Source: Candidatus Brocadia sp. WS118
GTDB taxonomy: Bacteria; Planctomycetota; Brocadiia; Brocadiales; Brocadiaceae
Direction: 5' to 3'
Length of the DNA: 64,000 nucleotides
Assembly (NCBI GenBank): GCA_007618135.1
Contig: PHFX01000152.1
Coordinates: forward strand, 62,001-126,000
Below, one piece after another: positions 8,313-51,350 of the stretch. Positions within the stretch are counted from its first letter, which is position 1. Each line of letters opens with the position of its first letter. The notes beneath the pieces were generated by a model. It was not told where the DNA came from. It worked only from the letters and a program-made list of their open reading frames with translations, and did no database searches. A program made the translations under genes and the position numbers.

Positions 8313-10529
8313 GTGAATTTCACGAAAATATTTCAATTGAGAAGCATCAAAAGAAAACTTATTTTGTTCACTTCTTTCCTTGTCATTTTGCCAGCAGGAA
8401 TTTTTATTGGTCTTGTAGCGCATTTTCACCAGCGGAGCCTCATCACGATAGAACAAATGAATACAAACCTCATGAATACTGTCATCCAGAATGAATGGAA
8501 AGAAAAGGCACATACCCTGGCATACATTCTGGCCAAGGAGATTGGACAATCCACGAATGAACTTAACATTTCTGAGATAAATCATCTTGCAACCCTGGGC
8601 ATGGAAGGAAAGGGTTTCCGCTATGTCACGGTACAGGACGAAGAGGGAAAGGAATTAGTTGATTCAACCGAAAGATTTGGATTGCAAAGAAATGTCCTTA
8701 CGAATGAACTGACACGAAGTGCACTCGCTTCAGATGATTTGATCACACAAACACAGAACGATATTGTTACTATCGCTGCGCCCATCCTTTATGGTTCCAA
8801 GGTACTTGGTGTTGTACGTATCGGTTTTTCTCTCACTGGAATTCAAATAATCCCTGATACACTCCACGGTAAGATCGGCTCTCACATGAAGCAATCGGCG
8901 ATAGTATTCAAACGAGATACCCTCCTTTTATTACCGGCAATCACCTTTCCTATTATGATTATAGGTTGGATACTCATACGTAGATTAACTTCCCCCATAC
9001 AGCAGCTGATGCTGGAAACAGAAACAATTGCCAAAGGAAACATGACCCGCCGAATTGAGACCAATTCAGGAGACGATGTAGGCAAGATCGCCCATGCTTT
9101 TAATAAAATGATCGCAGATTTGCGGGAGACCATCGTTTCAAAGGAGTATGCAGATAACATCATAAAAAGTATGGATGACTCCCTTGTAGTTGCATCTCCT
9201 GAATTTACGATACAAATGGTGAATCGGTCAACCTGCGAACTCCTGGGATATAACGAGCAGGAGCTTATTGGTAAGCCAATTAACATGCTATTTTCGGAAG
9301 AAGATACCGCTGACACATCCTGGTTTGATTTAATTGAAAAAGACCTCATTCATAATACAGAAAAAACCTATGTGTCAAAGGATGGCAGAAAAATAGCGGT
9401 GCTCTTTTCTGGCACTGCAATTCGTGGGAATAACGGCGCCATTCGGGGAATTGTATGTGTAGCACTCGATATCACCGAACGGAAACGAATAGAGGCGGAA
9501 CTGAGGAAAGCAGTAGCACAGAGGGATGCAAACATTAAAGATCTCGGATATCTCATGTATTTTTCTACTCTCATGAATGAAGAAGTACGGGAGGATAAAT
9601 TAGTTCATCACATGGCTAAAGCCTTACAGGAACACTTTCAGCCGGAACTCCTGGCCGTGGTAACTGTGGATAAGATGAAAAACGTGTTAGACGCATCACT
9701 CATAACCCCTCCGATGCCATTCAACAAACTTATCAGGGAGGAAGTTATTTCTGATCCGTCATTATGCGAGGTAATAAGAACAGGTCGTGAAATTATTATT
9801 GATAATACCGCCGAAGGCATACCCTGTGAATGCATTGCCCATAACATTGAAGGGGGAGGATATGCATGCCTTCCCCTGATAACGGGTGGCACTATCGCAG
9901 GAATGGTCCTGATAGGAAAAAAAGATAAAAGTTACTGGCTTAACGAAGAGATACGCAAACTCATTTTGGTCTATGTAGGGTTGACAGCATCAGCCCTTCA
10001 ACGAGTCAGACTTATTGACCTAACCAGACGTGCAGCTATAACGGATTCACTTACGGGAGCATATAACAGGCGATTCTTTGACGAGATGTTGAAGAACCAA
10101 ATCGCACTGGCAAAAAGGCGTAACGAATCACTTGGACTTGTCATTGCCGACCTGGATCACTTTAAAAACATAAACGATACTTACGGACATATCGTAGGAG
10201 ATCAGACATTACAACAGATAGCTTCTATCATGAAAAATTCCATACGGTCGTCAGACGTTCTGGCACGGTATGGGGGAGAAGAATTTGTTATTATCATGCC
10301 TTCTATTGATATAACCAATACCCTTAAGAAAGCGGAAAGTATTCGCGAGCAGGTAGAATCTTTTCAATTTAAGGTTGACTCCCTCGGGCGGTCTCCTCAA
10401 ATAACCATAAGTATCGGAGTTGCTTCCTTCCCGGATCATGGCGCCGAATGTGACACCCTGATAGCGTCTGCCGACATGGCCCTCTATAAGGCTAAGAAGG
10501 GGGGAAGGAACCGTGTCGAATCACCATAA
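8313..10529 (+). CDS. Membrane sensor diguanylate cyclase (HAMP-PAS-GAF-like-GGDEF)
   Basis: A 738-residue protein predicted to make cyclic-di-GMP. Residues 11-33 form a membrane helix, about 34-200 a periplasmic sensor, 201-222 a second helix (LLLLPAITFPIMIIGWILI), and 222-275 a HAMP linker (PIQQLM..IAKGNMTRRI..GDDVGKIAHAFNKM). A PAS domain follows (about 280-395, closing with the PAC-type VCVALDITERKRIEAELRKA), then a GAF-like region (about 410-560) and a C-terminal GGDEF domain. The active site is GGEEF in ARYGGEEFVIIMP, so catalysis is expected; no upstream RxxD inhibitory site is evident. The start is a GTG with weak GAAAAAGG upstream. It lies between gcvPA and gcvPB on the same strand, 45 bases before gcvPB, so it may be co-transcribed with them. 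Confidence 0.92.
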   Translation: MNFTKIFQLRSIKRKLILFTSFLVILPAGIFIGLVAHFHQRSLITIEQMNTNLMNTVIQNEWKEKAHTLAYILAKEIGQSTNELNISEINHLATLGMEGKGFRYVTVQDEEGKELVDSTERFGLQRNVLTNELTRSALASDDLITQTQNDIVTIAAPILYGSKVLGVVRIGFSLTGIQIIPDTLHGKIGSHMKQSAIVFKRDTLLLLPAITFPIMIIGWILIRRLTSPIQQLMLETETIAKGNMTRRIETNSGDDVGKIAHAFNKMIADLRETIVSKEYADNIIKSMDDSLVVASPEFTIQMVNRSTCELLGYNEQELIGKPINMLFSEEDTADTSWFDLIEKDLIHNTEKTYVSKDGRKIAVLFSGTAIRGNNGAIRGIVCVALDITERKRIEAELRKAVAQRDANIKDLGYLMYFSTLMNEEVREDKLVHHMAKALQEHFQPELLAVVTVDKMKNVLDASLITPPMPFNKLIREEVISDPSLCEVIRTGREIIIDNTAEGIPCECIAHNIEGGGYACLPLITGGTIAGMVLIGKKDKSYWLNEEIRKLILVYVGLTASALQRVRLIDLTRRAAITDSLTGAYNRRFFDEMLKNQIALAKRRNESLGLVIADLDHFKNINDTYGHIVGDQTLQQIASIMKNSIRSSDVLARYGGEEFVIIMPSIDITNTLKKAESIREQVESFQFKVDSLGRSPQITISIGVASFPDHGAECDTLIASADMALYKAKKGGRNRVESP

Positions 10530-37344: not shown

Positions 37345-38241
37345 TTATACCGATACGCAATTTTTGCCAGAAGACTTAGCCTGATGCATCAATTGGTTTA
37401 CTCTTTTCAACAACGTATCTACATTATCATTTGACCGCGCAACAGTGGCTGATACAGAAACCGTTACGCGAATAGCGTCAGCCCCCGCAAAAAAACCCGA
37501 TTGCTTAATAAGAATACGAATTTTATTCGCTATGGTCTGCAAATGATTTTCAGTAACATTCATGGCAATTACCATAAATTCTTCACCACCCCACCGGCCT
37601 ACCATATCTGTTGCCCTTACGCTATTCAACAGCGTCTTTGACACCATTTTTAACACCGCATCCCCAATCTTAGCGCCATACAAATCATTTATCCTTTTGA
37701 ACCCATCGATATCCACTAAAAAAACCCCGTATGACCAGCCGTACCTATGCATAACACCGAACATGGTTCGCAAATTCATTTCTAACCCTCGGCGTTTCAT
37801 CAATCCTGTGAGGGAATCAAGCAAGGCACACTTTTCAAGTTCTTCAATTTTGTGAGTATACTCTATCTTTGAAGAATTGTCATAAAGTTCCTCGATAGCG
37901 CCAATAACCTGTCCATCCAAATTTTTCAAAGGCAATATACGGACTAAGACTGGTACACGATAACCATCCTTGTGATGAGCATACACCTCCATACTCCGTG
38001 GGTTACCGTCATTCATTGTTCCTGTAGCCATGCATTCGTTCTCACAGACACCCCTCCCCTGGTCGTCTACATACATTAAAATATCATCTCTGCAACACCT
38101 TCCTACGGTATCGGAATTCTTATAACCGGTAAGAGTTTCAGTGTTTTTATTCCAGTAGGTTATTACCCTATCCCGGTTAACAGCACAAATCCCCCCAGAC
38201 AAACTATCCAACAAGCTTTTGTGTATATCAGCATTCGTCAT
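37345..38241 (-). CDS. PAS-GGDEF diguanylate cyclase
   Basis: A protein of about 298 residues, cytoplasmic, with an N-terminal PAS domain (about 5-130; LLDSLSGGICAVNRDRVITYWN, a Cys-rich insert with CCRDDILMYVDDQGRGVCENEC, then a PAC end) and a GGDEF domain (140-298) with the intact active site RWGGEEFMVIAM. The four Cys between residues 55 and 80 could hold a metal, cluster or redox switch. The start at 38241 (MTNADIHKSLL) follows GGAGGAAG and is preferred over the frame's start at 38274. It is downstream of lipA on the same strand by about 120 bases. Confidence 0.9.
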   Translation of the reverse strand: MTNADIHKSLLDSLSGGICAVNRDRVITYWNKNTETLTGYKNSDTVGRCCRDDILMYVDDQGRGVCENECMATGTMNDGNPRSMEVYAHHKDGYRVPVLVRILPLKNLDGQVIGAIEELYDNSSKIEYTHKIEELEKCALLDSLTGLMKRRGLEMNLRTMFGVMHRYGWSYGVFLVDIDGFKRINDLYGAKIGDAVLKMVSKTLLNSVRATDMVGRWGGEEFMVIAMNVTENHLQTIANKIRILIKQSGFFAGADAIRVTVSVSATVARSNDNVDTLLKRVNQLMHQAKSSGKNCVSV

Positions 38242-38362
38242 TACTGCCACTTCCTCCAATACATAAAAACCCAATCATCCATCAGATAACGTTATTTTGT
38301 CCTCGTATTATCGGCCAAATATGAAAATACTTAAGACTGAAAACACCCCTGTAAATACTGAT

Positions 38363-50039: not shown

Positions 50040-50339
50040 ATGGCAAATCTTTATACATGCAAAACGTGTGGTTTGGTGACGGAAGAAAAAGGTCATCTTT
50101 GTAATCCAATTCCGGCAAAAAAAGTTGTCGCCTGTAAATTTTGTGGAACGATATCCAGTGATCCCCGGCATGTCTGTGCGCCCAAGCTCGTTAATTTAAA
50201 ATATATTTGCGATTCTTGTGGTCGACTTGCATCAAAACGTGAAATGCTCTGCCGGCCATCGCCTTTACCAAAACCAAAAAAGACCGTAAAAAAATCTGTA
50301 TCAAAAAAAATTAGAAAATCCAACAAATCAAAGAAATAA
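50040..50339 (+). CDS. Triple zinc-ribbon-like small protein
   Basis: 99 residues with three repeated metal-binding units: CKTCGLVTEEKGHLC, CKFCGTISSDPRHVC and CDSCGRLASKREMLC. Each has Cys-x2-Cys followed by (His)-x-Cys about nine residues later. A Lys-rich tail (KKSVSKKIRKSNKSKK) could bind nucleic acid. AAAGGGAGGG precedes the ATG. It starts 15 bases after the NapH-like gene, so it is in the same operon. It may be a metal-binding accessory or an RNA-binding protein; I cannot name it. Confidence 0.8.
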   Translation: MANLYTCKTCGLVTEEKGHLCNPIPAKKVVACKFCGTISSDPRHVCAPKLVNLKYICDSCGRLASKREMLCRPSPLPKPKKTVKKSVSKKIRKSNKSKK

Positions 50340-50436: not shown

Positions 50437-50514
<78 letters not shown>

Positions 50515-50728: not shown

Positions 50729-50756
50729 TTGACAGCGAATTTTATAACATTAAAAT
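50729..50756 (+). promoter_or_regulatory. Promoter driving the c-di-GMP riboswitch transcript
   Basis: TTGACA (50729-50734), a 16-base spacer and TAAAAT (50751-50756), followed by about 35 AT-rich bases and then the aptamer. It is placed where the riboswitch transcript should begin. Confidence 0.6.
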
Positions 50757-50791
50757 ATTGATATATTTAAATCTATTATAAAATAATAATT

Positions 50792-50877
50792 CATATTCAG
50801 ATAAAGGCAAACCCTGGGTAACCAGGGGACGCAAAGTAAAGGGTCTTAATAAAGACAGCCTTACTGCCGAAGATATG
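50792..50877 (+). ncRNA. Cyclic-di-GMP-I (GEMM) riboswitch aptamer
   Basis: The sequence carries the GEMM hallmarks in order: GGCAAACC, a stem CTGG-GTAA-CCAG with the GNRA tetraloop, GGGACGCAAAG, a second stem GTCTT-AATA-AAGAC, then AGCC and ACTGCCGAAG. The outer stem CATAT/ATATG closes the structure. This class binds cyclic-di-GMP. The 3' strand of the aptamer is shared with the terminator stem that follows, so ligand binding should decide between terminator and read-through. The regulated gene is the zinc-ribbon gene at 51016. Confidence 0.88.
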
Positions 50878-50910
50878 TAAGAAAAGTATCTTTGCAGTAA
50901 GGTTTTTTTA
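50859..50910 (+). terminator. Intrinsic terminator of the riboswitch expression platform
   Basis: CCTTACTGC (50859-50867) pairs exactly with GCAGTAAGG (50894-50902), with an inner AAGATA/TATCTT helix, followed by seven T. The left arm overlaps the aptamer's 3' strand, so forming the aptamer should prevent this hairpin. That predicts an ON switch: c-di-GMP allows read-through. Confidence 0.85.
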
Positions 50911-51015
50911 TTTAAGGATAGAATATAAAAATATGCATATTGGGAACAATATTATCCGCGGTTTTGTTTTTTTAAGCAGTATAAAATTACATTTCAATCT
51001 ATCCAGGAGTTCATT

Positions 51016-51285
51016 ATGAGTGTTCAACAAAAAGAAAAATCAAAACGTAAAACTCAAAGAAAGTATAACGAAAAAAACCTTTCCCTAAAAAATGTTTATA
51101 CTGATAAAGCGGAAAGGATTTGTCTCATGTGTGGCAAAAAATTTATTAGCCGGGGACCACACAACAGAAGATGTCCGAGGTGCAACCAGAAGATAGACCA
51201 GGCCGCGGAAAACACGTTTTACATGCCGACCGTGTATAACAACGATGGGAGTTCTGTGGGAGATTTTATACAAATACCTTATTAA
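51016..51285 (+). CDS. Single zinc-ribbon protein under c-di-GMP riboswitch control
   Basis: 89 residues. A basic N-terminus (KEKSKRKTQRKYNEKNL) is followed by CLMCGKKFISRGPHNRRCPRC, a Cys4 zinc-binding ribbon with an RGPHNRRC loop, and a C-terminal tail NTFYMPTVYNNDGSSVGDFIQI. There is no signal peptide. CAGGAG precedes the ATG by 8 bases. The gene is monocistronic, between the riboswitch-terminator and a strong terminator at 51315. It is probably a nucleic-acid-binding or regulatory protein; small ribbon proteins of this type are abundant but mostly unstudied. Confidence 0.85.
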   Translation: MSVQQKEKSKRKTQRKYNEKNLSLKNVYTDKAERICLMCGKKFISRGPHNRRCPRCNQKIDQAAENTFYMPTVYNNDGSSVGDFIQIPY

Positions 51286-51314
51286 GAAACAGGGGTATAC
51301 GAATATTTGCTAGA

Positions 51315-51350
51315 AGGGTTGTGTAATAAGGATTACACAACCCTTTTTTA
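51315..51350 (+). terminator. Intrinsic terminator after the zinc-ribbon gene
   Basis: A 13-base stem AGGGTTGTGTAAT / ATTACACAACCCT with loop AAGG and a six-T run. It is a textbook terminator, about 30 bases after the stop codon. Confidence 0.92.

Follow-up and report, generated by a model that had tools for sequence, protein, structure and literature searches.

The locus and its zinc-finger gene

We analysed a stretch of 64,000 nt (the window) from the anammox bacterium Candidatus Brocadia sp. WS118. It carries the following features, of which the anatomy, conservation and distribution were established by sequence, whereas the ligand, the direction of control, the activity of the second promoter and the role of the protein are what we infer from them.

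50440-50514, minus strand: divergent tRNA gene (anticodon GGG as read, Pro; Rfam RF00005, 68.2 bits)
50729-50756, plus strand: sigma-70-type promoter for the riboswitch RNA, TTGACA-N16-TAAAAT, agreeing with the consensus at 11 of 12 bases
50797-50872, plus strand: c-di-GMP-I (GEMM-I) aptamer (Rfam covariance-model matches)
50858-50909, plus strand: intrinsic terminator on the aptamer 3' strand (50858-50867 pairs with 50894-50902; T-run 50903-50909)
50943-50968, plus strand: GGAAC-N17-TGTT element, probable older ECF-type promoter (27 of 27 orthologues, eight genera)
51005-51009, plus strand: ribosome-binding site AGGAG (GGAG-type box conserved in the orthologue alignment)
51016-51285, plus strand: 89-aa basic Cys4 zinc-finger protein (C36, C39, C53 and C56; CxxC...CxxC)
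51316-51349, plus strand: final intrinsic terminator with a 12-bp perfect stem (51316-51343), AAGG loop and T-run (read directly)
8313-10529, plus strand: Cache/HAMP-PAS-GAF-GGDEF protein, Asp at the base-selectivity position
37345-38274, minus strand: PAS-GGDEF protein, Asp at the base-selectivity position

A preliminary description of the locus had listed a promoter, a GEMM aptamer, a terminator sharing a strand with it, an 89-residue gene and a final terminator, and all of these were confirmed within 50729-51349, as were, elsewhere in the window, the two GGDEF enzymes it mentioned. Neither of the two plus-strand terminators was listed by a simple terminator scan of the window. On the other side of the tRNA gene lies a 99-aa Cys-rich protein (window 50040-50339, plus strand) with repeated CxxC-type knuckles and a basic tail, which gave weak zinc-ribbon matches only.

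We found a clear orthologue of the 89-aa protein, 75-97% identical, in most Brocadiaceae genomes searched (eight genera). Its named relatives belong to Candidatus Brocadia and other Brocadiaceae, the closest being that of Ca. B. carolinensis (97% identity), and more distant relatives of the CLMCG...NRRC type occur elsewhere in the order. No Pfam model scored above its cut-off (the best, DZR, reached 18.7 against 27.3), no NCBIfam model came near one, and neither sequence nor fold searches of solved structures returned a significant homologue. The AlphaFold model, with a mean pLDDT of 65.5 (about 71-87 by tens over residues 31-70), shows a beta-hairpin and a helix beginning at the second CxxC; Foldseek gave weak matches only, other small zinc fingers among them. 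The model suggests, with moderate confidence, that the Cys4 domain is a treble-clef-like zinc finger. The protein had been called a zinc ribbon, but at that same moderate confidence the predicted fold is not the classical ribbon. The basic N-terminus and the moderate-confidence model make it probable that the product is a regulator associated with nucleic acids or transcription. The view that the predicted target of the riboswitch is a lone gene with an atypical small Cys4 product was supported.

A conserved element between the riboswitch and the gene

The same tRNA adjoins the gene in nearly all Brocadiaceae orthologue loci fetched (eight genera), and a riboswitch precedes the zinc-finger gene in 11 of 11 Brocadia genomes. 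At the tRNA-anchored site in the seven other genera we found neither an Rfam match nor a remnant of GGCAAACC plus GACGCAAAG. The gap between tRNA and gene is 449-553 nt in the Brocadia loci measured (L043, in which the tRNA was not placed, was left out) and 168-254 nt in genera g3, g4, g6, g7 and g10; in g9 and g11 it is longer (368-564 nt), without an aptamer. The window's aptamer is 97% identical to those of the two orthologues compared, and every other cassette is at most 84% identical to it over the full length.

Another element, GGAAC-N17/18-TGTT, was found 5' of all 27 orthologues from the eight genera, 72-91 nt before the start codon; its chance of occurring in a shuffled 150-nt upstream region was 0.0011 per sequence. 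In the orthologue alignment GGAAC is invariant and the next base is A or C, unlike the flanks, which barely align between genera; the form at the element in the window's genome is GGGAAC. In Brocadia the element follows the riboswitch terminator and precedes the start codon, a placement because of which it looks like an older, ECF-like promoter that bypasses the riboswitch. The promoters recognized by EcfG have the consensus GGAAC-N16/17-CGTT. The window's element resembles these and other ECF promoters in its GGAAC -35-like box, 17-nt spacer and GTT-type -10, but differs in having TGTT and in that no regulon was seen.

Transcription from this putative second, ECF-like promoter (50943-50968) would start past the terminator and make expression independent of the riboswitch, so that c-di-GMP would add to a basal level rather than be the sole gate. 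The riboswitch, therefore, is probably not the only control of the gene. The locus had been described as a self-contained unit controlling the gene. Its parts are all present, but, because a conserved second-promoter-like element (at all 27 orthologues) sits 3' of the riboswitch terminator, this wording is too strong; the preliminary description missed the element between the terminator and the reading frame.

The riboswitch could nevertheless be the sole control, as first proposed, with all transcripts starting at ~50763 and GGAAC-N17-TGTT serving as a leader element or protein operator. The sigma-70 promoter is strong, and TTGAC with a TAAAAT-like -10 is conserved in 11 of 11 Brocadia orthologues. 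We also found no wide regulon of the GGAAC element, as its strict form is almost unique to the zinc-finger gene and a looser pattern gave few matches elsewhere, near the control rate. However, seven genera that lack the riboswitch have the element as well, about as far from the start codon, and a -35 box accounts better than a symmetric operator for an invariant GGAAC followed by a variable base (A or C). Sole control by the riboswitch thus seems unlikely to us, while the element itself may, instead of a promoter, be an operator or a leader-RNA motif.

By the simplest reading of the comparison, a promoter-aptamer-terminator cassette has come to be positioned 5' of the old promoter, and the gene would therefore now have two inputs; that the other genera lost the riboswitch is a less parsimonious explanation. 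We consider it likely that the locus combines a c-di-GMP-I ON riboswitch peculiar to Brocadia with a conserved zinc-finger gene that is older and has retained its ancestral promoter. The orthologues that have the riboswitch and those that lack it form a natural contrast between the presence and the absence of second-messenger control at a single gene.

Ligand and direction of the switch

In a whole-genome scan, RF01051 (c-di-GMP-I), the model with which the preliminary description had proposed a search, matched the aptamer with 73.5 bits (E 2.9e-14), far exceeding its gathering threshold of 35. In the window, the family left after clan competition was RF03167 (c-di-GMP-I-GGC), with 70.4 bits (E 1.2e-14), above its gathering threshold of 59; besides the aptamer, a permissive RNA-family search gave nothing else of note. 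We did not take the RF03167 label at face value. The window's RNA has CGCAAA and the RF03167 consensus CGCGAA, which puts A, not G, at position 47, where we take G to be the defining base of c-di-GMP-I-GGC from the consensus and the family name only; the RNA was therefore filed under c-di-GMP-I proper. Position 47 had also been read as G in cassettes with GGGGGCGCAAAG, but this was a register error of the pattern, the base being A, and such GGC tallies were not used.

The pocket bases are G50806 (G20), A50833 (A47) and C50867 (C92). Their numbering follows an alignment to a Vc2 sequence that was one base off, and the positions are therefore given by homology. With these bases (G, A and C) and its high score the aptamer resembles RF01051; it differs in its short P3 stem and in belonging to a highly amplified, uniform cassette set.

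The base change of cGAMP riboswitches (GEMM-Ib) is an A at position 20. The window's aptamer has G20, and A20 was found in only 2 of the 97 cassettes of three Brocadia genomes, both in G002. In cGAMP switches a base is changed at the pocket position contacting the G or A of the ligand (PMC9481103), and G20 acts as a selectivity factor rather than a hard filter (PMC9262584). The genome encodes six PilZ domains and 20 GGDEF domains. Asp, the canonical choice at the base-selectivity residue of GGDEF domains, was present in all 17 that were readable. The cGAMP-making GacA has Ser at this residue (PMC6456294), and no Hypr-type GGDEF was found among the 17 readable domains. The pocket bases and the GGDEF domains thus point to c-di-GMP, not cGAMP, as the ligand, cGAMP being judged unlikely from G20 and the lack of a Hypr-type enzyme among the readable domains. 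In the window a variant family, c-di-GMP-I-GGC, survives clan competition as the top Rfam match, which might suggest 3',3'-cGAMP or another cyclic dinucleotide instead. Given that RF01051 outscores this family, that position 47 departs from its consensus, and that neither position 20 nor the readable GGDEF domains are of the cGAMP type, we regard this as very unlikely. As a separate observation, two aptamers of G002 (Ca. Brocadia pituitae), L183 and L192, have an A replacing the G at the position that discriminates cGAMP from c-di-GMP.

The expression platform is coupled to the aptamer through a common strand. The terminator stem forms between GCCTTACTGC (50858-50867), the aptamer 3' strand, and GCAGTAAGG (50894-50902), followed by seven T, and C50867, the expected ligand-pairing C, is paired with G50894 in it. 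Region 50780-50915 is most stable in the terminator form (-43.7 kcal/mol; shuffled sequences average -23.1; z -5.85), and the best fold with the terminator 3' strand blocked reaches -26.6. Since the common strand makes aptamer and terminator mutually exclusive, the ligand should permit read-through. RNA polymerase would start at TTGACA...TAAAAT (50729-50756). Without c-di-GMP, GCCUUACUGC (50858-50867) would pair with GCAGUAAGG (50894-50902) and transcription would stop at ~50905; with c-di-GMP, strand 50858-50867 would be kept in the aptamer, leading to read-through. The riboswitch is, thus, predicted to be a transcriptional ON switch for c-di-GMP, a direction already proposed from the stem overlap and well supported by the anatomy.

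A comparable arrangement is the pilM riboswitch of Geobacter metallireducens, a transcriptional ON switch that senses cGAMP and whose terminator sequesters the ligand-pairing C (PMC9262584). The window's riboswitch shares with it the GEMM-I fold, the ON layout, a terminator on the aptamer 3' strand and the sequestered C. The two differ in that pilM combines cGAMP with a pilus gene, whereas here G20 predicts c-di-GMP and the target is a small zinc-finger protein.

The terminated leader of ~140 nt might itself be the product, acting in trans as a small RNA or serving as a ligand sink, with control of the gene incidental; a promoter and terminator of its own would yield a discrete short RNA at most of the ~38 loci in the genome. 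Most cassettes, however, lie on the coding strand 5' of a gene, and the pairing of riboswitch and zinc-finger gene is kept in 11 of 11 Brocadia genomes, which makes this explanation highly improbable. An OFF switch, with termination stabilised by the ligand, does exist among c-di-GMP-I riboswitches (Cd1; PMC9262584), but is hardly credible here with one strand common to two mutually exclusive structures.

The cassette set in Brocadia

We found ~38 GEMM-I aptamers in the window's genome, and 47 and 58 in two complete Brocadia genomes at E < 0.001; a stricter scan gave 19-48 aptamers in Brocadia genomes and 1-28 in other Brocadiaceae. In 77 of the 97 cassettes from three Brocadia genomes, an aptamer arm can form at least 7 bp with a downstream strand ending in a T-run, and the arm pair in those 77 is nearly always AGCCTTACTGC with GCAGTAAGGCT. 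Among the genes that follow Brocadia cassettes are those for type IV-type and Flp pilins, an amidase, a cytochrome c', a DUF11 surface protein, a caspase-domain protein and a sigma-54 response regulator, as well as a polysaccharide-type gene. Only four gene groups, the zinc-finger gene included, are found behind riboswitches in all three Brocadia genomes compared. The zinc-finger gene appears to be best explained as belonging to a regulon of ~38 c-di-GMP riboswitch cassettes, most of them directed at the cell surface.

In the well-studied, GEMM-rich species Geobacter sulfurreducens, 17 GEMM-I riboswitches have been described (PMC6456294, PMC8835794). The Geobacter regulon is similar in its many riboswitches per genome and in its targets (pili, polysaccharide and cytochromes). 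It is, however, mostly cGAMP-binding, whereas the Brocadia aptamers of three genomes are nearly all of the c-di-GMP type by sequence; Brocadia, moreover, belongs to a different phylum and has 19-58 aptamers per genome.

Both the riboswitch class and the ON-switch layout are known; the interest lies in the anammox host, in how large and uniform the set is, in the unusual target and in the clean comparison across genera. Anammox cells function as granules and biofilms. With predicted ON switches placed genome-wide 5' of pilins, surface proteins and polysaccharide genes, c-di-GMP becomes a candidate regulator of aggregation that can be put to the test. Among the open-access papers searched, none dealt with c-di-GMP riboswitches of anammox bacteria. 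We also propose, tentatively and at somewhat less than even chance, that the c-di-GMP riboswitch regulon of Brocadia is of exceptional size, with about 20-58 aptamers per genome in one standard attenuator cassette, and that its growth would be seen here in a cassette placed 5' of a conserved regulatory gene that has an ECF-like promoter of its own, putting a DNA- or RNA-binding zinc finger under two inputs, a stress sigma factor or c-di-GMP. If this is true, the zinc finger would feed the state of the second messenger into a wider programme.

Several individual cassettes showed further features. L002 (G000:C229:1-609, reverse) lies directly 5' of a 58-aa ORF that ends in ...FAEPKLTFIEPKLTKHGDATRITGNGFFSAFVP, looks like a lasso/RiPP leader (FxxPxLxxxGxxxxxT) and has no Pfam match. 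L010 (G000:C3:33284-33398, reverse) lies ~50 nt 5' of a caspase-domain (Peptidase_C14) protein, a relative of which is also behind a riboswitch in G002. At L004 (G000:C276:5057-5136), on a 15.9-kb contig that is possibly a mobile element, an aptamer without the usual terminator precedes a replication-initiation-like ORF. Recurrent insertions, such as GTAGTTTAAGACG...TATCCTTTCGTG or GTAGGGGCGTATTGC-type repeats, are seen in the P3 loop of many Brocadia aptamers (L007, L014, L071, L079, L085 and others), which gives the impression that small elements have inserted there. Finally, two c-di-GMP-I aptamers form a tandem pair in Ca. Brocadia pituitae (G002:C1:2195099-2195292).
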